Below are positions 4,842-53,541 of a stretch of 64,000 bases of DNA, one piece after another. This DNA is from Defluviitaleaceae bacterium. GTDB lineage: Bacteria; Bacillota; Clostridia; Lachnospirales; UBA5962. The stretch is from positions 1 through 64,000 of the forward strand of contig WRBA01000004.1 of the NCBI GenBank assembly GCA_009779915.1. Reading direction: 5' to 3'. Both the position numbers and the translations under genes were made by a program. The first letter of the stretch is position 1. Every line of letters begins with the position of its first letter. A model generated the notes under the pieces. That model saw nothing but the letters and a program-made list of their open reading frames with translations. It searched no databases and had not been told where the DNA came from.

Positions 4842-5659
4842 TGCATAAAATGACTCCAAAACCAATAAAGCGAGGTTTACTTAGATTGAAATTGGGGCAG
4901 ATATATTTTTCCTCCAAAAGGTGGCTTTATTGGGTATTTGGCGACATAAAATTTGCTCACAGGAGAGCGGAAGATTTGCTTTACGAGCATTTCACCCACG
5001 CTACCCCTCTGCTTAGGAATTTAAAAGATGTTGATATGGAGCTTCAGTATAATAAAATAACGAATTTAAAAATTGCTGTGCCAAAAGTTCATATGGTAAC
5101 TATATACCCCGGAGAGGTATTTTCTTATTGGCGTCTTATCGGAGTGCCAACAATAAGAAAGGGCTATCTTAAAGGGATGGTTCTTAAAAACGGCACATTT
5201 AGCCCAGGTGTAGGGGGTGGGCTGTGTCAGCTGTCCAATTTAATATATTGGTTGAGCTTGCACACGCCCTTGACTGTGATAGAGCGGCACCGCCACGGCT
5301 ATGATGTTTTCCCTGACTCTGATAGGACTCAGCCTTTCGGCAGCGGTGCTACTTGTTTTTATAATTATGGGGATCTAATGATAAGAAATAATACAAACCA
5401 AGGGTTTCAGCTTGTTTTGGAAATTACGGATACTCATTTAAAGGGAGCATGGATGTCGGATGTACCTCCCTCACGTATCTATGATGTATATGAAAAAGAG
5501 CATATTATTAAGCCTGAATTTTGGGGTGGTTATACAAGGCATAATACTATTTTCAGGAAAGTTTTTGATTTGGATAATATTTTGCTTGACGATGAGTTTG
5601 TCGTCGAAAATCATGCAATTATGATGTACGAACCTCTTTTAAGTGATGGAAAAATATAG
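4841..5659 (+). CDS. VanW family protein
   Basis: A 272-aa protein of the VanW family, first named from the vanB glycopeptide-resistance cluster; its biochemical role is unknown. The diagnostic stretch is GVGGGLCQLSNLIYWL, around residues 124-140, followed by HRHGYDVFPDSDRTQPFGSG. No signal peptide is evident. ATG at 4841 overlaps the last base of the aminomutase stop codon, so the two are probably translationally coupled; TTG 4838 is less likely. Its place between a catabolic mutase and that enzyme's ATPase is odd, because VanW proteins are usually linked to the cell envelope. No vanHAX genes are present, so resistance is not implied. Confidence 0.88.
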   Translation: MHKMTPKPIKRGLLRLKLGQIYFSSKRWLYWVFGDIKFAHRRAEDLLYEHFTHATPLLRNLKDVDMELQYNKITNLKIAVPKVHMVTIYPGEVFSYWRLIGVPTIRKGYLKGMVLKNGTFSPGVGGGLCQLSNLIYWLSLHTPLTVIERHRHGYDVFPDSDRTQPFGSGATCFYNYGDLMIRNNTNQGFQLVLEITDTHLKGAWMSDVPPSRIYDVYEKEHIIKPEFWGGYTRHNTIFRKVFDLDNILLDDEFVVENHAIMMYEPLLSDGKI

Positions 5660-8212: not shown

Positions 8213-8929
8213 ATGTCAAAATACACAACCGGAGAAATGGCAAAACTATGTAATGTTTCGGTTAGGACCATTCAGTTTTACGATACTAAGGGGCTGCTGC
8301 ATCCAAGCGATTTGACGGAGGGAGGCAGACGATTATACACTGATGATGATTTAAGTAAGCTCCGGCTTATCTGCACGCTAAAAGTTATTGGGCTTTCTCT
8401 TGACTTAATTAAGGGTATTTTAGAAAGCGAATCCCCAGGCAAAGTTTTATCAATACTCCTTGAGGAGCAGGTAAAGCAGATAGGTGATGAAATAATTGAG
8501 CGGCAAAAACAGCTTGAAGCCATTGAGGCTATTAAGGAAAGTATCCGCGATAAAACCGCTATTCCGGTAAATTCAATCATTGACATAGAGCATATGATGG
8601 AAAAAAACAAGAAAGTGCGTAAAAAGTTCAGGAAGTTGGTAATTCAGGCATGTATATTCTCTATACCTCAATATTCCTTGTTGGCTTGGTGGATATTTGG
8701 AGGTCCTTGGCTTCCTTTTGTACTGTGTTTTATTATTGCAATCCCATTTTGGGTGTTATTGGCAAAAAATCATTTCAAAGATGCGGCATTTATTTGCGCC
8801 GAGTGCAATTCGGTGTTTAAGCCAGCTTTTATAAAGATTTTATTTACCAGCGGCACCCCTAAAGCAAGATGGCTGACTTGTACCAGCTGCGGTCATGCCG
8901 GTTATTGTGTTGAGACTATTGCGGATTGA
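8213..8929 (+). CDS. MerR family regulator with membrane segment and zinc-ribbon tail
   Basis: A 238-aa protein. Residues 1-70 are a MerR winged-helix domain (YTTGEMAKLCNVSVRTIQFYDTKG, then GGRRLYTDDDLSKL). A dimerisation coiled coil follows to about 120. Residues ~140-190 hold two hydrophobic segments (SLLAWWIFGGPWLPFVLCF, IIAIPFWVLLA). The C-terminus has two CxxC pairs (CAEC and CTSC), suggesting a small metal-binding ribbon. Start ATG 8213 is set by the CAGGAGGTGAT ribosome binding site; a GTG at 8204 lies inside that site. A membrane-tethered MerR with a zinc ribbon is less usual; effector and targets are unknown. Confidence 0.85.
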   Translation: MSKYTTGEMAKLCNVSVRTIQFYDTKGLLHPSDLTEGGRRLYTDDDLSKLRLICTLKVIGLSLDLIKGILESESPGKVLSILLEEQVKQIGDEIIERQKQLEAIEAIKESIRDKTAIPVNSIIDIEHMMEKNKKVRKKFRKLVIQACIFSIPQYSLLAWWIFGGPWLPFVLCFIIAIPFWVLLAKNHFKDAAFICAECNSVFKPAFIKILFTSGTPKARWLTCTSCGHAGYCVETIAD

Positions 8930-40516: not shown

Positions 40517-42115
40517 ATGAAGAAAAAAACTTTAGCTTTAATCCTGGCAAGTGCTTTTATAATCGGTGCTTGTACACCTACCGCTGCGCCACCGGCAACT
40601 CCTGCGCCTGACACTGGAACAGCGGCACCTGCAGCACCTGCACAGCCGGCAGAGATGCCCCCTGAACCGCCGCCGCAAGATGCGCCACTTGGAAGAGGCA
40701 TAACAGTAGCAATAGCTATTGAAACACCTTCCGTTGTACCGGCAAGGCATACGTCTTTGGTAGCCGGATTTAAAAATGCCCTGACCCATAACGGACTTTT
40801 TAGGGCGCATTATACGGATCTTTCACCTGTGCCTGAACTCATATCCGGCTGGAGGGCTATCAGCGACTCAGTGTTTGAGTTTGATCTTATTCAAGGTGTC
40901 CTTTTTCACAATGGAGAAGAATTGACAGCTTATGATGTGGTTGCATCAATGGAATATGTACGCAATTACCCTTATGCAAGGGCAAATCATTTAAGTATTG
41001 TAGGCTGGGAAGTAGTTGACCGCCACACTTTTAGACTTGACACAGGTGAGCCAAATGCCATGATGTTTTTCGACCTGACAAGCCACGCAAACAACATATT
41101 GCCTGCATCCTTAATAGCATCAGGTCATGATTTTACAGTTGACCCTGTTGGCACAGGCCCCTTTGTTTTTGAAGAGTGGCGTTCCGGCGATTCACTTAGA
41201 TTTACTGCATTTGAAGACTATTTTGATGAGAACCGTGCCGCAAGAGTCGAGTATGTGGAATGGCGTATAATTCCTGAAGGCTCTTCGAGAACCATATCAC
41301 TTGAAACCGGTGAAGTTGACTATATAGTTGATGTTGCCTTGCCGGATGTGCCTCGCTTAGAAGCCGATCCAAACATCACTGTTTTTCAGCGTCCCGGCAA
41401 TATGATGCAATTTTTCTCATTTAATAACGACCGCCCTCAGTTCCAGAATGTTTATGTGAGACGTGCTATTGATATGGCATTCGATCGAGAAGCAATGGTA
41501 ATAGCCAGCTTAGATGGGTTTGGTGAGCCGGTTTACTCAACTATGCCGCCAATGTTTGCAGGCTCTTCTCAAGAAGGAACAAGAAGTTTTGATCCTGAAG
41601 GCGCAAGAGCATTGCTTGCGGAACAGGGCATAGCCCCGGGGGATCTTTCCTTTGATATGCTTGTCTTTGCCGAAGACCAAAGACGCAGAGCTGAAGTTGC
41701 TCAGGCTAATCTTGCCGATATTGGAATTGAAGCAACAATTACCATGATGGATCAAGCAACTTGGCTTACCCTTACAACCGGCGATAATTTTGAAACCACT
41801 TTCGCTAACCAAACTCAGCCTAATTTGCTTGCACTTATGAGAGCGATTATGCACAGGGATAGTATCAACGGTCCAAATAGGGCTCGCTGGAATAACGATG
41901 AGCTTTCAGATTTAATCGACCAAGCACTTGCTACAATTGATGAAAGCGCAAGAAATGCCATACTCCAAGAAGCTTCAAGAGTAGCAAATGAAGATGTTGG
42001 CTTCATAGGCACCAATACAAATGTTGTAGTACGTGCCTTTAACGCAAACCTTATTTCTCCTGAAATAGCCCCAAGCGGTGCTATGTTCTTGAATTTGGTT
42101 TATTGGGTTGATTAA
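40517..42115 (+). CDS. SBP9: peptide-type ABC substrate-binding lipoprotein
   Basis: A 532-aa SBP_bac_5 protein with the shortest signal peptide of the array (lipobox IIGAC, Cys19). The mature part has PSVVPARHTSLVAGFKNALTHNGLFR, FFSFNNDRPQFQNVYVRRAIDMAF and TTGDNFETTFANQTQPNLLALMR. It groups with SBP6, 7 and 10. It is 27 bp from SBP8 with a GAGAGGTGATTTC ribosome binding site and no promoter of its own, so SBP8-9-10 probably form one transcript. Confidence 0.91.
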   Translation: MKKKTLALILASAFIIGACTPTAAPPATPAPDTGTAAPAAPAQPAEMPPEPPPQDAPLGRGITVAIAIETPSVVPARHTSLVAGFKNALTHNGLFRAHYTDLSPVPELISGWRAISDSVFEFDLIQGVLFHNGEELTAYDVVASMEYVRNYPYARANHLSIVGWEVVDRHTFRLDTGEPNAMMFFDLTSHANNILPASLIASGHDFTVDPVGTGPFVFEEWRSGDSLRFTAFEDYFDENRAARVEYVEWRIIPEGSSRTISLETGEVDYIVDVALPDVPRLEADPNITVFQRPGNMMQFFSFNNDRPQFQNVYVRRAIDMAFDREAMVIASLDGFGEPVYSTMPPMFAGSSQEGTRSFDPEGARALLAEQGIAPGDLSFDMLVFAEDQRRRAEVAQANLADIGIEATITMMDQATWLTLTTGDNFETTFANQTQPNLLALMRAIMHRDSINGPNRARWNNDELSDLIDQALATIDESARNAILQEASRVANEDVGFIGTNTNVVVRAFNANLISPEIAPSGAMFLNLVYWVD

Positions 42116-42187
42116 CTTACTTTAGTCGTTTCAGTCCATTTTGAATTCAATTCACTATATATGTTCATTTGAGAGGTGACTTCAAGA

Positions 42188-43801
42188 ATGAAAAAGAAAA
42201 GAATTTTAGGCTTAATTTTAACAGGGACATTGCTAATTGGTATTCTTGGTGCTTGTACCACTGCCCAGCCGCCTGCTGCGGCTACTGATGGCAGTGCCGC
42301 AACTACTCCTGCTGCGCCAACACCAACTCACGGTACTACTGAGTCTACTCCTATACCTCCACCGGGGCAAGCTATAGGCAGAGGGGTTACAATGGCACTT
42401 GCATCTGAAACACCTTCAGTTGCACCTACAAGGCATACCACTCTTATCGGTCAGTTTAAGAATATGCTTACACATAACGGCATTATCAGGCTTTGCTATG
42501 ACACTCATGTACCTTTGCCTGATTTAGTTACCGGATGGAGAGCTATTACTGATACGGAATGGGAATTTACTCTACATGAGGGGATTTTATTCCATAATGG
42601 CGAGGAAATGACCGCTGACGATATTGTTGCTTCCATACACTATGTTAGAACTCATCCTGAAAACAGAGCGATACATAGAAGTGTTGTAGGAGCTCGCGCT
42701 GTTGACAGGTATACTTTTATATTGGACACAGGTGAGCCTAATGCTCAAGTCCTTTTTGATTTAACTCATCATTCAAATTTTATAATGCCAAAATCTTTGA
42801 TAGATGCAGGTCATGATTTTACGGTGGATCCAATCGGTTCAGGCCCATTTGTCTTTGATGAGTGGAGGCTTGGGGACTCTTTAACTTTCAAAATTTTTGA
42901 GGATTATTTTGATACTGAAAGATTTCCAAGAATCGAATATGTAACTTGGAGAATCATACCGGAAGGTGCTTCAAGAACGATAGCCCTTGAAACCGGAGAG
43001 GTTGATTTTGTTGTAGATGTTGCTTTCCCTGACATCCCGCGTATGGAGGCAAACCCTGAAATTACTGTTGTTCAGCGTCCCGGTTTAATGTATAGCTATC
43101 TTATACTTAATAATGACCGACCTCAATTTGAAAATATTCATGTGAGGCACGCTATTGATATGGCTCTCGATAGAGATGCAATGCTTATGGCCAGCTTAGA
43201 TGGGTTTGGCGTTCCTACAAGGGCGACTATGCCTATGATGCTTCCCGGCGCAACAATGGAAAACACAAGAGAGTTTGACCCGGAAGGTGCAAGAGCGTTA
43301 CTTGCTGAACATAATATAGACCCTGCCACTCTTGGCTTTGAAATACTTACTTTTAATGAAGAGCAGCGGCGCAGAGGTGAAGTTGTTCAATCTAACCTTG
43401 CCGATATTGGGATTGCAACCACTATATCCATGATAGATTTTGCGGCTTGGCTGCCTTTAACAATGGGTGACAACTTTGAAGCTTCTTTTGCTAACTTAAC
43501 TCCAAGCAGTATGCTTTCATTTATGAGGGATATGATGCATATAGATTTTATCGATTCACAAAACAGAAGCCGTATGCGCCATCAAGAGCTCTCCGATTTA
43601 ATTACCGAAGCTTTTGCCACTATTGATGAGGACGCAAGAGTTGCAATTTTAGAAGAAGCCGCAAAACTTTCTAATGAGCATGCCGGGTATATTGGTACCA
43701 ATACTAATATAATAGTTAGAGCTTTCAATTCAAACCTTGTAGTTCCTGAAATCGGGCTAAATGCTTACAACAACATAAATATGTTCTATTGGCTTGATTA
43801 G
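42188..43801 (+). CDS. SBP10: peptide-type ABC substrate-binding lipoprotein
   Basis: A 537-aa SBP_bac_5 protein with lipobox GILGAC (Cys23). It has PSVAPTRHTTLIGQFKNMLTHNGIIR (IIR instead of LFR), ILNNDRPQFENIHVRHAIDMAL and FANLTPSSMLSFMR, and an atypical end, YNNINMFYWLD. ATG 42188 follows GAGAGGTGACTTCAAGA; GTG 42176 lies inside that site. It is 72 bp after SBP9 without a visible promoter box or terminator between. Confidence 0.91.
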   Translation: MKKKRILGLILTGTLLIGILGACTTAQPPAAATDGSAATTPAAPTPTHGTTESTPIPPPGQAIGRGVTMALASETPSVAPTRHTTLIGQFKNMLTHNGIIRLCYDTHVPLPDLVTGWRAITDTEWEFTLHEGILFHNGEEMTADDIVASIHYVRTHPENRAIHRSVVGARAVDRYTFILDTGEPNAQVLFDLTHHSNFIMPKSLIDAGHDFTVDPIGSGPFVFDEWRLGDSLTFKIFEDYFDTERFPRIEYVTWRIIPEGASRTIALETGEVDFVVDVAFPDIPRMEANPEITVVQRPGLMYSYLILNNDRPQFENIHVRHAIDMALDRDAMLMASLDGFGVPTRATMPMMLPGATMENTREFDPEGARALLAEHNIDPATLGFEILTFNEEQRRRGEVVQSNLADIGIATTISMIDFAAWLPLTMGDNFEASFANLTPSSMLSFMRDMMHIDFIDSQNRSRMRHQELSDLITEAFATIDEDARVAILEEAAKLSNEHAGYIGTNTNIIVRAFNSNLVVPEIGLNAYNNINMFYWLD

Positions 43802-43843
43802 ATTTATGCGTTTTGTATATTTTCATTAATGAAGCGGTGAGTT

Positions 43844-43905
43844 TTTAGTCGATTTTTACAAACAATGTTTTATGTAAAGATTTTGTAACAAGTATTCATT
43901 ATAAT
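43844..43905 (+). promoter_or_regulatory. SBP11 promoter with WalR-like box
   Basis: TTTAGTCGATTTTTACAAAC (43844-43863), TGTAAA-GATTT-TGTAAC (43873-43889), TATAAT (43900-43905). Same spacing as SBP5, SBP6 and SBP12. Confidence 0.68.
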
Positions 43906-43965
43906 TACAATTGAGTAAACACATTAATTTCAAGAAGTGATCCACTATTAAGGAGTGATTATTAA

Positions 43966-45576
43966 ATGAGAAAGAAAAGAATTTTAGGTTTGGTATTGGC
44001 AAGCACTTTCTTATTTGGCGTTCTTGCCGCTTGTACACCTGCTGCCCCTACAGGGCAACAACAGCCTGAAACACCACCTGCAGGTCAGCAAACAGTACCT
44101 CCCCCTGGTACGGATACTACCTCACAACCATCTTTAGAAGCAGGTTTCCAAAGAGGTATCGTAGTTCTCGGTGCAACAGAGACCCATTCTGTAACCCCTG
44201 CACACCACGGTCAATTAGTCGGTCACTGGGTGAATGTTATGACTCATAACGGTCTCTTTAGGGTAGCTGAATATGCTCTTGAGCCTGTTCCTGATTTAGT
44301 TGAAAGCTGGACGGCTATTACAGACTCATTGTTTGAAATGAGACTTCATGAAGGGGTTATGTTCCACAACGGGGATATATTAACCGCTCATGACGTTGCA
44401 CTTTCTTTAGAGTATGTAAGAAGATACCCTTATCAAAGAGGTAATCAATCAGCTGTTGAAAGTTGGGAAGTTGTTGACGATCTTACTATTTTGATTGACA
44501 CGGGCGTTGCCAATGTTACATTCTTTAACCAACTGGCACACCAAGGCAACTTTATATTCCCAGGTGCTTTGATTGAATCCGGGCACGATTTCTCTATTGA
44601 CCCTGTAGGTACAGGTCCTTTTATGTTCAGCGAGTGGAGAGCCGGTGATTTTGTACATTTTGAGGCTTTTGAAAATTATTTTGACCAAGACCGTTTCCCA
44701 AGAGTTGGATATGTAACTTGGAGATTTGTCCCTGAAGGCTCTTCAAGAACAATCGCATTAGAAGCCGGCGAAGCTGACTATGTAATAGACGTAGCTCTTC
44801 CTGATGTTGAAAGGCTTAGGAGTAATCCTGGAATAACCGTTATGGAACGTCCCGGTGCTACCTATTCCTACCTTGTACTTAACCCAACCCGCGCCCCATT
44901 TGATAATATTCATGTGAGGCATGCAGTTGATATGGCTATGGACAGAGATGCAATGTTAATCGTAAGTTTAGACGGATTTGGTGTTCCTCTTTCCGCCGCT
45001 GTGCCTACATTTTTCCCAGGCGCGTCAACTGAAGGCACAAGAGCTCACGATCCTGAAGGCGCGATAGCATTACTTGCCGAGCATGGTCTTGACCCTGCAA
45101 CACTTGGCTTTGAAATGATAGCCACTGATGAAGTAACAAGACGCAGGGCTGAAGTTGTGCAAGCTAATGTTGCTGAAATCGGTATTCCTGCTACTATCAC
45201 AATGATGGATGCTGCCGCTATGGGCAGTCAAACATTGGATGAGTCGGCTTGGCAGTCTGCATTTAGAGGTCAAACTGCAACTAACTTACCAATTTTTACA
45301 CGCTCTATGTTCCACTCTGCAAGCCTTGAAACAGGAAACCGCGGTCGTCATAATATGCAAGAGCTTGATGATTTAATCGACCAAGCTTTCGTAACATTTG
45401 ATGAAGCGGCGAGAATGGCTATACTCAATGAAATTTCAAGAATTGCTAATGAACACGCAACCCAATTAGGTACTAATATGAATATAGCTATGAGAGCTTT
45501 CAACGCAGACCTTAGAGTTCCTGAACTTGCTGCAAATGGCTTTATGTATAAGAATATGATTTATTGGGCTGAATAA
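43966..45576 (+). CDS. SBP11: peptide-type ABC substrate-binding lipoprotein, divergent
   Basis: A 536-aa SBP_bac_5 protein with lipobox GVLAAC (Cys23) and a Gln/Pro-rich linker. It is one of the most divergent copies: ETHSVTPAHHGQLVGHWVNVMTHNGLFR instead of PSVAPARHT, LNPTRAPFDNIHVRHAVDMAM instead of NNDRPQF, and MMDAAAMGSQTLDESAWQ in the C-terminal lobe. The ligand-facing segments differ most, which suggests a different ligand. It has its own promoter and terminator and is the last SBP before the inserted NAD-salvage block. Confidence 0.91.
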   Translation: MRKKRILGLVLASTFLFGVLAACTPAAPTGQQQPETPPAGQQTVPPPGTDTTSQPSLEAGFQRGIVVLGATETHSVTPAHHGQLVGHWVNVMTHNGLFRVAEYALEPVPDLVESWTAITDSLFEMRLHEGVMFHNGDILTAHDVALSLEYVRRYPYQRGNQSAVESWEVVDDLTILIDTGVANVTFFNQLAHQGNFIFPGALIESGHDFSIDPVGTGPFMFSEWRAGDFVHFEAFENYFDQDRFPRVGYVTWRFVPEGSSRTIALEAGEADYVIDVALPDVERLRSNPGITVMERPGATYSYLVLNPTRAPFDNIHVRHAVDMAMDRDAMLIVSLDGFGVPLSAAVPTFFPGASTEGTRAHDPEGAIALLAEHGLDPATLGFEMIATDEVTRRRAEVVQANVAEIGIPATITMMDAAAMGSQTLDESAWQSAFRGQTATNLPIFTRSMFHSASLETGNRGRHNMQELDDLIDQAFVTFDEAARMAILNEISRIANEHATQLGTNMNIAMRAFNADLRVPELAANGFMYKNMIYWAE

Positions 45577-45688: not shown

Positions 45689-46237
45689 CTAGATTTCATC
45701 AATATGGCACATTTTCATTATGTTAAGAGCCTCTTTATGGCTTTGTGGAGTAACACCTGCACAGCATTCAGCATTTACGCTGATTTTAATATCAGGTATT
45801 GTATTTTTTATCATAATGGCATTGGAAATTACACATATATCAGTGCAAAGTCCCAAAATCTCAATTTCTGATATTTTACAAACACGAGACTTTAGAAAGT
45901 CCACCAAATCTACACTGCCAAAGATCGGTTTTATAAAAGTGTTTTGAGGCAGTTCGGACATTCTGATTGTGTCATTGTTCTTTTGCCAAGCATTTTCTAT
46001 ACTTGCATTAATTTGCCAACCTTCTGTGTTTTCAATACAATGAACAACCGGCAGTTTTTTACCCTCAAGAGTGTCGAGATAATCGGTTTGATGAGTATCT
46101 TTTGTAAAGAGTATTAGCTCCCCCCGGGAGCTTTCAATACGCCTAACCACTGTATCAACAATGCTGAGTGCTTCCGCTGTACCCAAGGAGCCGTCAATAA
46201 AATCATTTTGCATATCTACAACAATAAGTACTTTCAT
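45689..46237 (-). CDS. Nicotinamidase-like cysteine hydrolase
   Basis: A 182-aa isochorismatase-fold hydrolase. The catalytic Asp is in LIVVDMQNDFIDGSLG, metal-binding D-x-H in FTKDTHQTD, and the nucleophile in GLCTDICVISNAI. VVHCIENTEGWQI matches the nicotinamidase HCxxxTxG segment. It would turn nicotinamide into nicotinate for NAD salvage. The nearby NiaR-type repressor and AmiS/UreI-type channel support this over an isochorismatase role. GGAGGTGTAGT precedes the ATG. About 400 bp of repeat-rich DNA separates it from the channel gene, so it is not clearly in the same transcript. Confidence 0.82.
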   Translation of the reverse strand: MKVLIVVDMQNDFIDGSLGTAEALSIVDTVVRRIESSRGELILFTKDTHQTDYLDTLEGKKLPVVHCIENTEGWQINASIENAWQKNNDTIRMSELPQNTFIKPIFGSVDLVDFLKSRVCKISEIEILGLCTDICVISNAIMIKNTIPDIKISVNAECCAGVTPQSHKEALNIMKMCHIDEI

Positions 46238-46330
46238 ACTACACCTCCAAATCTAAAGTCAATGGTGCATAACCTGTTTCAGTTAATTTTTCTATCGCTT
46301 TTTGCTTCAACTATGACCCGCAATAGCGGA

Positions 46331-46365
46331 CGAGCCGCAAGGCTCGGTTCCGGCTTTAGCCGGAA
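46331..46365. repeat. Two adjacent short palindromes
   Basis: CGAGCC-GCAA-GGCTCG (46331-46346) and TTCCGGC-TTTA-GCCGGAA (46348-46365). The second has the same CTTTA-type loop as palindromes elsewhere in the window. The open frame running through 46208-46600 is an accident of this repeat region. Confidence 0.6.
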
Positions 46366-46418
46366 GTCTTCCTTTTGCGAAACCCACACAAAAATCATTA
46401 CCGCAAAACACTCGCTTG

Positions 46419-46581
46419 TAGTCAACGCAGATGAAAATCATCAAAATAAAGTGCCGTATTTTTCCCTCAAGGCAAGGAAGCGGCGACGACGCATATGCAA
46501 AGCTTATCTGCTAGGAGCCGCTGACGATGCATTGTGGGTAAAAGACAAACTTTATTTGATTATTTTCATCTGTGTTGACTA
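46419..46581. mobile_element. MITE-like inverted-repeat element
   Basis: Arms at 46419-46450 (starts TAGTCAACGCAGATGAAAAT) and 46551-46581 are reverse complements with a few mismatches. Outer bases TATAG-CA and ATGAAAA match the 17732-17898 element, and both interiors start AAAG[CT]G..TTTTTC.C.CAA..CAAGGA. No transposase is present. It fills most of the gap 46238-46634, which has no gene. Confidence 0.55.
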
Positions 46582-46634
46582 TAGGCTCGTACCACTCTGA
46601 AAAATTACTTCAACACATGCTTATGCACTGTTGC

Positions 46635-47141
46635 TTAAAGAATAATACCGAGAAGAATAAGTAAACCGGGTATAAACGTGCTTGCAATGCCGTTAATTAT
46701 TAAGATATGCGGGGTAAACTTATCTACCGCTTTTATGTCCGGCATTATGGCAAAAAAGCTTTGTGCCCACAATACTGCCCACATAAGCCACATATAAACC
46801 ATTTCCCATGGACCATTGTTGATAAAAGTATCCCCTGCAAAAACCAATGATACTACCGAAGCAAAAAAACCATACAAACCAAAAACTTTCCAGCTATCAG
46901 CTTTAATTATAATATGCGTTGCAATAATAAAATAATTTAGCGCAAAAAGCCACATAGCCGCTGAAAAACCAAAAGTTACATGGTCAGTAGCCATTGCCGT
47001 TTGAAAAACAGCATTGACGGCTATAATCACCCCAACCAAAATGTTTGCCGCAGCCTTAGCTTTGTCATCTACTTTCGTTAAATAGCTGACACCGTTTAAG
47101 GTTAAAGCAAAGCCGGCGAATAATAAATTGATACCAAGCAA
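46635..47141 (-). CDS. AmiS/UreI-type membrane channel, candidate nicotinamide or nicotinate transporter
   Basis: A 168-aa protein with six hydrophobic segments, matching the AmiS/UreI family, which passes urea or short amides. The family N-terminus (LLGINLLFAGFAL) starts at a TTG at 47141 preceded by GGGAGGG at the right spacing; an in-frame ATG at 47156 has no ribosome binding site. A perfect palindrome covers the promoter, and the upstream gene encodes a NiaR-type repressor. Nicotinamide is an amide, so a vitamin channel is plausible, but urea or another amide is not excluded. No urease or amidase gene is visible nearby. Confidence 0.78.
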   Translation of the reverse strand: MLGINLLFAGFALTLNGVSYLTKVDDKAKAAANILVGVIIAVNAVFQTAMATDHVTFGFSAAMWLFALNYFIIATHIIIKADSWKVFGLYGFFASVVSLVFAGDTFINNGPWEMVYMWLMWAVLWAQSFFAIMPDIKAVDKFTPHILIINGIASTFIPGLLILLGIIL

Positions 47142-47152
47142 AAAAATCCCTC

Positions 47153-47194
47153 CCATATAATTTACATATGTCTTGACATATGTAAATTATATGG
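47153..47194 (-). promoter_or_regulatory. 42-bp perfect palindrome, candidate NiaR operator
   Basis: Twenty-base arms, with the core ACATATGTC-TT-GACATATGT, around a TT centre. The left arm read on the minus strand includes TATAAT of the channel promoter, so binding would block RNA polymerase. It lies 25 bp after the stop codon of the NiaR-type gene. The central TGTCTTGACA fits what is recalled of NiaR sites, but this was not checked against a matrix. Confidence 0.75.
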
Positions 47195-47215
47195 AAAAAG
47201 TCCTATTTATGTCAA
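47186..47215 (-). promoter_or_regulatory. Sigma-A promoter of the channel gene
   Basis: On the minus strand TTGACA (47215-47210), an 18-bp spacer, then TATAAT (47191-47186). The -10 lies within the palindrome. Confidence 0.7.
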
Positions 47216-47218
47216 TAC

Positions 47219-47737
47219 CTAATTTTGAATCAAAAATCCAGCTGCACTCAAGGCATGGCTGATTTGCTCAAAATGCCCTTTATCCCGGCAAGCAATTGTG
47301 TGTAAATGCACTCCCGATTTCAGTTCTGATAACAACTTAATTTCTGATGATTTTATCCTGTCAATAAAAATATCTACATCATCATAGGTTTTAATGTTAA
47401 GCTGACCTGTAATTTCTCCGTATAAATCATGCTCAATAATTACATCCATAACGATTGCCCCTAAATCAACCATTGTATACAGCTCTTCTTTGGTATTTTC
47501 GGCACTATGGCAGCAAGCAATTTTACCAATATACTGATTTGGCTCCCTAAATTCCGGCATCATATAACCTCTTGCCGTTGCAACGATTTCATGCCCTTGT
47601 GCGCGTAAAAGCGCAATGTCCCCAACTATAACTTGACGGCTTACATTCAATTTTTTAGCCAATGTGGAAGCACTTATGGGTACATTGCTTTGTGTAATTA
47701 CTTCAAGTATTGTGCCTCTTCGCAGAGTTGCGTCCAT
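47219..47737 (-). CDS. niaR: NiaR-type transcriptional repressor (HTH plus 3H domain)
   Basis: A 172-aa regulator. Residues 1-60 are a DeoR/HTH_11-like winged helix (ISASTLAKKLNVSRQVIVGDIALLRAQGHEI). Residues ~75-170 form the 3H domain, with its conserved histidines in ACCHSAENT, IIEHDLYGEI and SGVHLHTIACRD, which bind nickel and nicotinate in Thermotoga NiaR. It senses niacin and represses NAD synthesis and salvage genes. A palindrome lies right after its gene, before the channel gene. GGAGGAG precedes the ATG. Confidence 0.9.
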   Translation of the reverse strand: MDATLRRGTILEVITQSNVPISASTLAKKLNVSRQVIVGDIALLRAQGHEIVATARGYMMPEFREPNQYIGKIACCHSAENTKEELYTMVDLGAIVMDVIIEHDLYGEITGQLNIKTYDDVDIFIDRIKSSEIKLLSELKSGVHLHTIACRDKGHFEQISHALSAAGFLIQN

Positions 47738-49674: not shown

Positions 49675-49762
49675 AAAAATGATGTGTTTCTAGCATCGCA
49701 CTTCCTTGGTACTAATCCTATTAGTACTCCATCAGGGATAGTTTATTCAAGAGGTGATTATA

Positions 49763-51373
49763 GTGAAAATGAAAAGAATTGTAGGTATGGTAATAGCAGG
49801 CACTTTTTTATTCGGCGTTCTCGCCGCTTGTACACCCCAGGCTCAGCCGACTGCTCCTGATCCTGCCGTACCGGCTCAGCCCGCACAGCAAGAGCCTGTA
49901 GCCACTCCCGGTACTGCCGAACCGGAACAGCCCCCCGTACAAGGGTTAGGCAGAGGTGTAATTGTAGCTACTCAAAATGAAACCCCTGCAGTTGCCCCTG
50001 CAAGGCATACTGCTGTAGCCGGCAGCTTTAAAAACATGTTAACCCACAATGGTCTTTTTAGAGTTGACCACGCAACTTTGGAACCTGTTCCCGATTTGGT
50101 GGAAAGCTGGAGACCCCTTAGTGATACTGTGTTTGAATTCACTCTTCGTGAAGGCATAATGTTCCACAACGGCGAAGAAATGACGGCTGAAGATGTTGTT
50201 GCTTCCATTTATTATGTTAGGACTTTCCCTTACGCAGCTGCGTCACACGGCTCTGTTGTAGGTGCTGATGTAGTTGATAGGTATACTTTTACCTTAGATA
50301 CAGGTTCGCCTAACGCAATGCTCTTTTTTGACCTTACTCTTCAAGGCAACTTTATAATGCCTGCAGCTTTAATAAATTCAGGTCATGACTTTACAGTTGA
50401 GCCAGTTGGATCCGGTCCCTTTGTATTTGATGAATGGAGACACGGTGACTTTTTGAACTTCGTAGCTTTTGACAATTATTTTGATACTGAGAGAGCTGCA
50501 AGAGTTGAAAGTATACATTGGAGAATTATACCTGAAGGCTCTTCAAGAACAATTGCTCTTGAAGCCGGGGAAGTTGACTTTATTGTAGAGGTTCCTTTCC
50601 CTGATATTCCCAGGATGGAAGCCAATCCCGATATTAGTGTTGTTATGATTCCAGGTACAGCTCATAATTTCTTGCTTTTGAATAATGACTTGGAAATGTT
50701 TAGCAATGTGTATGTAAGACGTGCTATCCATATGGCACTTGATAAAGAGGCCATGGCACTTGCCGGCTCTGACGGGTTCGCTATCCCTACCTGGGCTAAT
50801 ATGCCGACTGTATTTGCCGGATCGACCCTTGAAGGTACAAGGGACTTTGATCCTGACGGCGCAAGAGCACTCCTTGCCGAGCATAATATCGATCCATCGA
50901 CAATTAGATTTGAAATCTTAGCCAGCAACGAAGAAGGAAGACGCAGAGGCGAAGTTGTTCAGTCTAACCTTGCTGATATCGGCATCGAAGTTACTATCGC
51001 TATGATAGACTTAGCCGGGTGGCTTACAGTAACAGCTTCTGAGAATTATGAGGCAGCTTTTGGCAGCTTTACAGCAAGTAATATACTAACTTTCTTTAGA
51101 AGCACATCTCATATAGCTTCTATTGATGGTCCTAATAGAAGTCGTATGCGAAACGAAGAGCTTACCGCTTTAATCGACCAAGCTATCGCTACAATTGATG
51201 CAAATGAAAGAATTGCCATCCTTGAAGAAGCCTCCAGAATGGCTAATGAACATGTTGGTTTTATTCCTAACCATTTGAGCATGGTTATAAGAGCCTTCAA
51301 TTCCGGTCTTCATGTTCCTGAGACTCATGCAACTGGTGCTCTTAATTTGAATATGGTTTACTGGGTTGAGTAG
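49763..51373 (+). CDS. SBP12: peptide-type ABC substrate-binding lipoprotein
   Basis: A 536-aa SBP_bac_5 protein with lipobox GVLAAC (Cys23). It carries PAVAPARHTAVAGSFKNMLTHNGLFR, LLNNDLEMFSNVYVRRAIHMAL and FGSFTASNILTFFRSTSHI, and ends LNMVYWVE. The start is GTG 49763 or ATG 49769 after AAGAGGTGATTATA; the GTG at 49754 is inside the ribosome binding site. It has its own promoter and terminator. It is separated from SBP11 by the 4-kb NAD-salvage/S41 block on the other strand. Confidence 0.91.
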   Translation: MKMKRIVGMVIAGTFLFGVLAACTPQAQPTAPDPAVPAQPAQQEPVATPGTAEPEQPPVQGLGRGVIVATQNETPAVAPARHTAVAGSFKNMLTHNGLFRVDHATLEPVPDLVESWRPLSDTVFEFTLREGIMFHNGEEMTAEDVVASIYYVRTFPYAAASHGSVVGADVVDRYTFTLDTGSPNAMLFFDLTLQGNFIMPAALINSGHDFTVEPVGSGPFVFDEWRHGDFLNFVAFDNYFDTERAARVESIHWRIIPEGSSRTIALEAGEVDFIVEVPFPDIPRMEANPDISVVMIPGTAHNFLLLNNDLEMFSNVYVRRAIHMALDKEAMALAGSDGFAIPTWANMPTVFAGSTLEGTRDFDPDGARALLAEHNIDPSTIRFEILASNEEGRRRGEVVQSNLADIGIEVTIAMIDLAGWLTVTASENYEAAFGSFTASNILTFFRSTSHIASIDGPNRSRMRNEELTALIDQAIATIDANERIAILEEASRMANEHVGFIPNHLSMVIRAFNSGLHVPETHATGALNLNMVYWVE

Positions 51374-51387
51374 TATTTAACTTTAAC

Positions 51388-51424
51388 AAACAGTCTCCTG
51401 TTTTCAAATGGGGGACTGTTTTTT
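51388..51424 (+). terminator. Terminator after SBP12
   Basis: AAACAGTC-CC pairs with GG-GACTGTTT, ending in a T6 run 15 bases after the stop. Confidence 0.88.
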
Positions 51425-51474
51425 GTAGTTTCCCACTTTATCGATTATGAACAAATTGTAACCTTGGAGGTGAT

Positions 51475-51552
51475 ATGTATACAAAAGACAATCTATTAAT
51501 ATTTACCTTGATACTTAGGATTAGAAGGCTTGGTTTTGTGCTATTTGTATAG
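51475..51552 (+). CDS. Possible 25-residue hydrophobic peptide
   Basis: GGAGGTGAT stands four bases before ATG 51475, which opens a 25-codon frame with LLIFTLILRIRRLGFVLFV. The binding site equals that of the SBP genes, but its close spacing and the short length make the call weak. It could be a small membrane peptide or the remnant of a lost SBP gene start; similar flanking sequence recurs at 51672-51705. Confidence 0.25.
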   Translation: MYTKDNLLIFTLILRIRRLGFVLFV

Positions 51553-51575
51553 TTTTTTTAGTTTACTTCCCACAT

Positions 51576-51648
51576 TTTAGTTGATTCATACGGATAATAA
51601 TTTATTTAATTATTTTGTAATGATTTTGTAATAATTATCCATTATAAT
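51576..51648 (+). promoter_or_regulatory. SBP13 promoter with perfect WalR-like box
   Basis: TTTAGTTGATTCATACGGAT (51576-51595), then TGTAAT-GATTT-TGTAAT (51616-51632) and TATAAT (51643-51648). The upstream element is 11 bp farther than in SBP5, 6, 11 and 12, one helical turn. It drives SBP13 and perhaps dppBCDF. Confidence 0.7.
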
Positions 51649-51790
51649 AATAGTCATTTAAAGCTATAGTGTTCCACTTTACTTATAATGAATAAATTGT
51701 GAATATTTTTTGTACATATTGTGGAGGCTAAACTAGACTGCTTTAACTTATGAAAACCACGTAAGCTAAATAAGCTGTAGGGGCGTTTAT

Positions 51791-51839
51791 TTAACTTCTA
51801 AATGTCTGCACACTGCGTATCGGCACATTTGGAGGTTAA
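51791..51839. repeat. Hairpin in the long SBP13 leader
   Basis: TTAACTTCTAAATGT (51791-51805) pairs with ACATTTGGAGGTTAA (51825-51839) with two G-T pairs. The leader from the predicted start to the ATG is about 285 nt, longer than for other SBPs. The palindrome resembles the one at 61493-61538 before metK. Confidence 0.5.
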
Positions 51840-51939
51840 CTCGTTGTAAAATATATTGTCTACTTAATGTAAAGTAGATCATATAGATTAAGAAAAGGAT
51901 TTCCCTAAAGGGTTTCCTTAAAAAAATAAGAGGTGAATT

Positions 51940-53541
51940 ATGAAGAGGAATAGGATTTTAGGAATGGTTTTAGCAAGCGTTATGCTATTTGGCGTTCTTG
52001 CTGCCTGTACTCCAGCGCAGCCAACACAACCAGCACAGCCTGCGCAAACTGCACCACCAACAGCTCCAACTGAACCAACAACTCCTCCACCTCCCCCGGT
52101 GGACGAAATTGAGCTTGGCAGAGTTATCACGGTTGCTACTCAAAACGAACCTCCTTCAATCGCACCAGCAAGACATAATGCAGTGGCAGGAACGTACATG
52201 AATGTAATGCATTTTAACGGTCTTTTCAGAACTGATTCTTTCACGCTCCTTCCGGTGCCTGATTTGGTAGCAAGCTGGGAAGCTATCAGTGACACCGTGT
52301 TTGAATTTACTATTCACGAAGGTATCTTATTCCACAATGGTGAAATAATGACTGCCGAAGATATTGTTGCATCTTTTGACTATGTTCGTAACTATCCTGA
52401 TGCAAGGGTATCACGTGAGAGTATCGTAGAGTATGAAGCAGTCGGTCCTCTTACTGTAAGAATTAATACTGAAACTCCTAACGCAATGCTTTTTGCAGAC
52501 CTTACACATCAAGGAAATATGATTATGCCTGCTTCTTTGATAGCACAAGGTCATGATTTCAATGTACAGCCAATAGGCTCCGGTCCTTTCGTGTTCGAAG
52601 AGTGGAGAATGGGTGATTCTATCACAAGCTCCGCCCACTTAGAATATTTCGACCGCGACAGAGCGGCAAGAGTTGAAGGCGTTATTTGGAGAACGATTCC
52701 TGAAGCAGCTTCAAGAACAATTGCTCTTGAAACCGGCGAAGTTGACTACAATCAATATGTTGGTTTTGAAGACATTGCAAGACTTCAAGGTACTGACGGC
52801 ATAGAGGTATCTATGGTTACAGGTACATCTCATAATGTTATGTATATTAACCATGAGCTTCCGCAATTTTCTAATATCTATGCAAGACGTGCCATTGACA
52901 TGGCTATAGACAAAGAGGCATTGTCACTTGCAGGCTTTAACGGCTTCTCTATACCTGTTTGGTCTCAAGCTCCGGTAATCTTCGAAGGTTCCACAGATGA
53001 AGGTGCTAACAGATTTGATCCTGAAGGTGCTAGAGCACTCCTTGCTGAGCACGGTATCGACCCTGCTACTCTTGAGTTTACCAACATAGCCAGCAACGAA
53101 GAGAGAAGACGTATGAGTGAAGTTATGCAAGCAAACCTTGCAGATATCGGAATAACTATGCACATCGAAATGAACGACCTTGCAACTACTTTGGATAGAA
53201 CAATCGGCGGCGATTACGAAGCCGGTATGGGTGGCTTTAACTCTGCTACTTTCTTAGGCTACGTAAGGGGTACATTCCATATTAACGGTATCGATGCTTC
53301 TAACAGAAGCCGTGGTGTTCACCAAGAAATGTCTGACCTTATTGACCTTGCACTCGCTACACCTGATCAAGCTCTCAGGATTCCTATGTACACTGAGATT
53401 AACAGAATGGCCAATGAGTTTACTCTCTCTATTCCTACTCATCAAGCTATGGTTGTAAAAGCTTTCAATGCGAACCTTATAGTTCCTGAAACTCCTGCAA
53501 CCGGTGCTCTTGGTCTTAACATGATGTTCTGGAATGACTAA
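51940..53541 (+). CDS. dppA: SBP13: peptide-type ABC substrate-binding lipoprotein of the complete transporter
   Basis: A 533-aa SBP_bac_5 protein with lipobox GVLAAC (Cys23) and a Gln/Pro/Thr-rich linker. It has PSIAPARHNAVAGTYMNVMHFNGLFR and GGFNSATFLGYVRGTFHINGIDASNRSR, shared with SBP2. It directly precedes dppBCDF and is therefore the likely founding receptor of the importer. AAGAGGTGAATT precedes the ATG. A hairpin and an inverted-repeat element lie between it and dppB. Confidence 0.92.
   Translation: MKRNRILGMVLASVMLFGVLAACTPAQPTQPAQPAQTAPPTAPTEPTTPPPPPVDEIELGRVITVATQNEPPSIAPARHNAVAGTYMNVMHFNGLFRTDSFTLLPVPDLVASWEAISDTVFEFTIHEGILFHNGEIMTAEDIVASFDYVRNYPDARVSRESIVEYEAVGPLTVRINTETPNAMLFADLTHQGNMIMPASLIAQGHDFNVQPIGSGPFVFEEWRMGDSITSSAHLEYFDRDRAARVEGVIWRTIPEAASRTIALETGEVDYNQYVGFEDIARLQGTDGIEVSMVTGTSHNVMYINHELPQFSNIYARRAIDMAIDKEALSLAGFNGFSIPVWSQAPVIFEGSTDEGANRFDPEGARALLAEHGIDPATLEFTNIASNEERRRMSEVMQANLADIGITMHIEMNDLATTLDRTIGGDYEAGMGGFNSATFLGYVRGTFHINGIDASNRSRGVHQEMSDLIDLALATPDQALRIPMYTEINRMANEFTLSIPTHQAMVVKAFNANLIVPETPATGALGLNMMFWND

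Follow-up and report, generated by a model that had tools for sequence, protein, structure and literature searches.

The AmiS/UreI-family channel encoded between niaR and pncA in a Defluviitaleaceae bacterium probably conducts a niacin vitamer and is repressed by NiaR; the likeliest substrate is nicotinamide, which PncA would trap, and the AmiS/UreI fold would here take the place of a NiaX importer. The window—the whole stretch of 64,000 nucleotides that was analysed—comes from a 2.45-Mb draft genome (G000; 63 contigs, 93.6% complete), and niaR, the channel gene and the pncA-type gene are consecutive in it, all on the minus strand (contig 4). The preliminary description of this DNA had named a NiaR-type repressor, a channel and a nicotinamidase as neighbours, all of which are present according to both Pfam and the sequence, and had taken them for a candidate niacin-salvage cassette with its channel under NiaR control, a reading that now gains support from the predicted operator, from the recurrence of the arrangement and from a syntenic exchange with a NiaX-like gene. 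The transported substrate, its direction, the trapping step and the binding of NiaR at this site are what we infer from the comparison of sequences.

The gene niaR (47219..47737, minus strand) encodes a protein of 172 residues with the Pfam domains HTH_11 and 3H, whose closest relatives in the PDB are the solved NiaR proteins 7cv0, 9ebr and 1j5y; phmmer matched it to BhNiaR (7cv0) with an E-value of 9e-36, and TmNiaR (1j5y) was matched as well. The metal/effector residues of the 3H domain—H77, E85, H103, H144 and H146—are identical in all eight locus homologues and align with those of BhNiaR. At the other end of the locus, pncA (45689..46237, minus strand) encodes a nicotinamidase-type cysteine hydrolase of 182 residues with the Isochorismatase domain of Pfam, the nicotinamidases 3o90, 1ilw and 3pl1 being its solved relatives. 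Both its triad (D8/K103/C135) and its metal site (D47/H49/E58/H66) are conserved in nine of nine homologues, and it is the D/H/E/H metal site that separates nicotinamidases from isochorismatases. The curated PncA equivalog PRK11609 scored 33.9 bits against it, below the cut-off of 174, this model of 213 positions having been built for another, longer PncA type; the name PncA therefore rests on the residues and on the context.

Between the channel gene and pncA there is a gap of 397 bp, which is much shorter in the relatives and which holds a MITE-like palindromic element (46259..46636, unstranded) with imperfect terminal inverted repeats, a long inverted repeat in its interior (74% over 170 nt) and an RNA-fold z of -5.4. 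Because of this gap and insertion, transcription from the channel promoter may not reach pncA in the window. The element had no match among phage records; a 55-nt match of 82% was found at positions 8710-8764 of the locus L052, so that related copies may occur in other genomes.

Concerning the control region, the preliminary description had placed a promoter and a palindrome in front of the channel gene, and both are there. The sigma-70 promoter of the channel gene (47186..47215, minus strand), with the -35 element TTGACA (47215-47210) and the -10 element TATAAT (47191-47186) separated by a spacer of 18, agrees with the consensus at 12 of 12 positions, and its -10 element sits inside the palindrome; equivalent channel promoters were found in L003, L031 and L067. 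The palindrome, a predicted NiaR operator at 47153..47194 (unstranded), reads CCATATAATTTACATATGTC TT GACATATGTAAATTATATGG and consists of two arms of 20 nt each (47153-47172 and 47175-47194) that are 100% complementary across a 2-nt spacer, whereas the longest arm in each of 60 Markov-random sequences of 64 kb measured 8-15 nt. It is of type I (TGT-N4-ACA) and lies over the promoter. Its core, ACATATGTCTTGACATATGT (47164-47183), has its sole exact match in the 2.4-Mb genome at the window copy, and 20 consecutive operator bases, ATTTACATATGTCTTGACAT, are identical at 20 of 20 positions to the B. halodurans site, at which the binding of NiaR has been demonstrated by EMSA (PMC7713382). Further TGTCNTGACA sites in the genome were not counted as NiaR boxes, those inspected being devoid of the extended palindrome.

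Judged by its sequence, the palindrome is a NiaR box, because it is identical to a demonstrated site, recurs before channel and NiaX-like genes and is placed in trans in G005, where the box and niaR lie on different contigs. That NiaR might not bind the palindrome, which the preliminary description had held to be damaging to its proposal, is disfavoured by this identity and recurrence, and by comparison the regulation of the channel gene by NiaR appears nearly certain. A reading of the palindrome as a terminator was rejected, since RNA begun from the -10 element would start inside the palindrome and so would carry only half of the hairpin. At positions 1420-1470 of L003, a T run follows an extended version of the NiaR-box palindrome, and this palindrome may there double as the operator of the channel gene and the terminator of niaR.

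The channel gene itself (46635..47141, minus strand; 168 residues) is taken to start at TTG 47141, six bases downstream of a GGAGGG that is part of the ribosome-binding site GGGAGGG (47148..47154, minus strand); the ATG at 47156, given by the mechanical open reading frame, lies inside the palindrome and is the less likely start. The protein matches the Pfam family AmiS_UreI (PF02293) over its full length with 106 bits, and its AlphaFold model (pLDDT 94.5, pTM 0.85) has the acid-gated urea channel HpUreI as its top match in the PDB (TM 0.84), followed by the acetate channel SatP. The full-length profile together with the six-helix HpUreI fold place it in the AmiS/UreI family, and the modelled fold is that of UreI, not that of an ECF S-component.

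Six pore residues of HpUreI—F84, Y88, W146, W149, L152 and W153—are unchanged in the window channel. Two of them, Tyr88 and Trp153, are the named constriction residues of HpUreI, a channel selective for the small urea, and with this constriction retained the sequence does not make it obvious that a pyridine ring could pass. In all nine channels of the window's clade (clade A), V9 of HpUreI is replaced by A and E177 by N, the latter position being occupied by I in L003 and by V in L067; the glutamate is kept in seven of the seven urease-linked UreI proteins compared. In HpUreI, E177 lines the pore as part of the constriction zone, and the mutation E177Q abolished the pH gating of the ammonia flux (PMC12087780, PMC12965118). 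All NiaR-linked channels are without the pore glutamate, but its loss alone is not diagnostic, because it is also absent from the amidase-linked L071 and from L061.

The preliminary description had suggested looking for the same trio in other genomes, and with the window channel protein as the query the trio was found in L003/L056, L031/L051 and L065. The combination of niaR, box and channel occurs in four other genomes, including members of Actinomycetota and Erysipelotrichales: the order niaR-box-channel-pncA is seen in L003/L056 and L031/L051, both named Defluviitaleaceae, the order box-channel-pncA-niaR in L065 (Coriobacteriia, Actinomycetota), and niaR-box-channel, with no pncA nearby, in L067 (Erysipelotrichales). 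That the same genes are combined in different orders in two phyla points to function, not to a single inherited piece of chromosome. Pairs of the channel gene and pncA, in either order, that have no niaR neighbour are present in L030/L052, L032, L033 and L035, the last three being pncA-channel operons of the genus g304, in whose genomes no NiaR was found among the matches listed; in L053 and L054 the channel gene stands alone. Altogether, pncA is found no more than about 1.5 kb from the channel gene in 8 of the 11 loci, the exceptions being L053, L054 and L067, compared with 1 of the 30 NiaX-like loci (Fisher p 1e-5, kinship uncorrected). The relevant relatives of the channel come mainly from termite-gut MAGs (termite samples Lab288, Emb289, Nt197, Th196 and Cu122; PMC7024585).

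The exact core box was found in 7 of the 392 genomes of the order, the reversed-pattern control being found in one genome, and its targets in those seven genomes are all membrane transporter genes: three channel genes, three genes of ECF S-components and one PTS_EIIC_2 gene. The S-component protein, a membrane protein of 182-201 residues usually encoded beside niaR in boxed loci, matches nothing in Pfam or NCBIfam; its model has the fold of the ECF vitamin S-components BioY, PanT, ThiT and RibU (all with probability 1.00), and it is on account of this predicted fold that it is called NiaX-like here. In the genus g331, the order MBL / niaR / box / NiaX-like / pncA / msrA of G479 corresponds to MBL / niaR / box / channel / pncA / msrA in G529, the genes common to both being 56-81% identical, and G513 carries MBL / channel / pncA / msrA. 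No NiaX-like gene was found in G000, G024, G513 or G529; G583, where the channel coexists with a NiaX-like gene, counts against a reading as replacement. The exchange at one address in g331 is the strongest argument for the role of the channel as an importer. Concerning the PTS_EIIC_2 target (PF13303), the membrane protein encoded at 349-1545 of L099 (genome G636), immediately downstream of niaR and of an exact copy of the box, is a further candidate niacin transporter, perhaps of the NiaY family.

As regards the AmiS/UreI family elsewhere, genes from other families of the same order lie beside ureC, ureE or ureF (L037-L043, L046, L048), and more distant ones beside acetamidase/formamidase genes (L060, L068, L071, L076); no urease genes were seen near the clade-A loci. 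In the tree of 49 rows, a single branch (99/97) sets the urease-linked channels apart among the labelled rows. Distinct from this urease clade, the window's clade forms a group of nine rows with 100/100 support and a stem of 1.75 changes per column; a group of 18 rows (99/97) encloses this clade together with L003 and L067. The link of the channel to urea or amides elsewhere, which the preliminary description had named as evidence against its proposal, thus holds for the family at large but not for the window's clade, the recurrent neighbours of which are pncA and niaR. T. maritima was set aside as a precedent, its PF02293 match being under the cut-off. There are also two further contexts in the family: a solo AmiS/UreI gene at about 5000-5500 in two Campylobacteraceae genomes (L055, L057), located within a ribosomal-protein operon between rplA-like and rplJ-like genes, and an AmiS/UreI gene that follows a gene for a concentrative nucleoside transporter at a distance of about 100 bp in Bacillaceae (L079, L096), where the context is neither urease nor amidase.

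With respect to the metabolic background, PncB was detected in G000, and NadA, matched in 12 of the 14 control genomes searched alike, gave no match there; a NiaX-like gene, NiaX being the one known type of niacin importer that the search covered, was not detected either in this 93.6% complete draft. The organism therefore probably depends on niacin salvage, and with PncA and PncB present and a NiaX-like gene undetected, some route of niacin entry is needed. No urease was found in the genome, its lone urease-alpha match being an amidohydrolase (Amidohydro_3 protein) and rejected as urease. Paralogous extracellular solute-binding lipoproteins, five or more in number, are encoded on the plus strand on both sides of the niacin locus (40517-45576 and 49754-53541 of the window); they are about 532-541 residues long and oligopeptide/SBP5-like by eye.

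Under plentiful niacin, NiaR bound at the palindrome would cover the -10/start region and stop the transcription of the channel gene, a repressor logic taken from the studied NiaR proteins, with the identity of the site coming from the sequence here; under scarcity, the channel would be produced. An uncharged niacin vitamer, nicotinamide being the likeliest candidate, would then diffuse inward through it, PncA would convert nicotinamide to the charged nicotinate, PncB would commit the nicotinate to NAD, and the hydrolysis by PncA would draw the flux inward. This pairing of a channel with an amide hydrolase would be analogous to that of UreI with urease and of AmiS-type channels with amidases. 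We infer nicotinamide rather than nicotinate as the substrate, because pncA accompanies the channel so much more frequently than the NiaX-like gene (8/11 versus 1/30 loci), and because the channels of the family pair with the hydrolase of their own amide and a passive channel needs a trap.

It is, on the other hand, conceivable but unlikely that the channel imports mainly nicotinate, or both vitamers, and that pncA adjoins it merely via the shared NAD salvage. NiaX-like genes do occupy the same slot, once with pncA next to them, the fold of the model is related to that of the acetate/succinate channel SatP, and three loci (L053, L054 and L067) lack pncA nearby; the channel gene, however, has pncA beside it far more often than the NiaX-like genes do, the pncA-channel pairs persist without niaR, and the partners of AmiS/UreI proteins elsewhere are hydrolases of neutral amides. 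The five loci with a NiaR box before the channel gene and the syntenic exchange with the NiaX-like importer make it very improbable that an ordinary urea or short-amide channel serving nitrogen is at hand, the neighbourhood of niaR and pncA being incidental. Such a role would suit a Pfam family that is mostly urease- or amidase-linked, as well as the HpUreI fold and the conserved Y88, W146, W149, L152 and W153, but not the undetected urease in G000, nor a clade that stands apart from the urease clade and has lost E177.

Since HpUreI conducts ammonia (PMC12965118) and the known reaction of PncA releases it, the channel could also be imagined to vent the ammonia set free by PncA instead of importing a vitamin, an explanation that deserves hardly any credence: the ammonia from a vitamin-level flux would be trivial, the channel gene occupies the slot of an importer, the niaR-box-channel arrangement exists without pncA (L067), and control by NiaR, on at low niacin, fits import and not venting. 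Import of nicotinamide with PncA as the metabolic trap is the reading preferred for the window, and beyond it the evidence leans towards a UreI-fold clade, spread across gut bacteria of several phyla, of NiaR-controlled channel-type nicotinamide importers that would have displaced NiaX at the same locus, with E177 replaced by N, I or V depending on the lineage.

The known B3 transporters NiaP, NiaX and NiaY have been found confidently in just 25% of the B3-auxotrophic gut genomes (PMC6593275), so many B3 importers are missing, and the window channel offers a concrete and testable candidate family for the entry of this vitamin. The replacement event inside one genus (g331) represents a natural control, and the named changes of pore residues may have shifted a urea channel to a vitamin. 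A dedicated bacterial nicotinamide channel is not named in the literature searched.

Compared with the known NiaR (YrxA) regulon, the locus shares the 3H-domain repressor, the TGT-N4-ACA operator and the control of niacin uptake and pncA, but its transporter is of the AmiS/UreI family. According to Rodionov (2008), as relayed in part by PMC5343564, the transporters of that regulon are niaX, niaP, niaY or pnuC, and NiaY is ascribed there to five genomes of Bacilli and Clostridia. The AmiS/UreI family is not named as a NiaR target in the literature found, which relays Rodionov (2008) by citation. If NiaY were an AmiS/UreI protein, the novelty would shrink to a confirmation, the syntenic and pore evidence still being new. 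The NiaY of that work reportedly corresponds to the 'BH3254' family and not to AmiS/UreI, and it is possibly of the PTS_EIIC_2 type present at L099.

With HpUreI from Helicobacter pylori (3ux4, 6nsj), the window channel has in common the fold, at TM 0.84 and 28% identity, and the constriction residues F84, Y88, W146, W149, L152 and W153; it differs in E177->N, V9->A and T87->N, in being without the long periplasmic loop, in the lack of a urease in its genome and in its predicted control by NiaR. The AmiS-type channels encoded next to FmdA/AmdA or aryl acylamidase genes likewise stand beside the enzyme that hydrolyses their presumed amide, and for one of them paracetamol, an aromatic amide, has already been proposed as the substrate (PMC9420511). 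The hydrolase partner in the window, by contrast, is a nicotinamidase, with NiaR as the regulator, and in the family tree the FmdA-linked sequences are located on the opposite side from the window's clade. Finally, the niacin ECF S-component NiaX shares the genomic slot, the operator and presumably the role of the window channel, but it has an unrelated fold and needs the ECF ATPase module, whereas the window channel would be passive.
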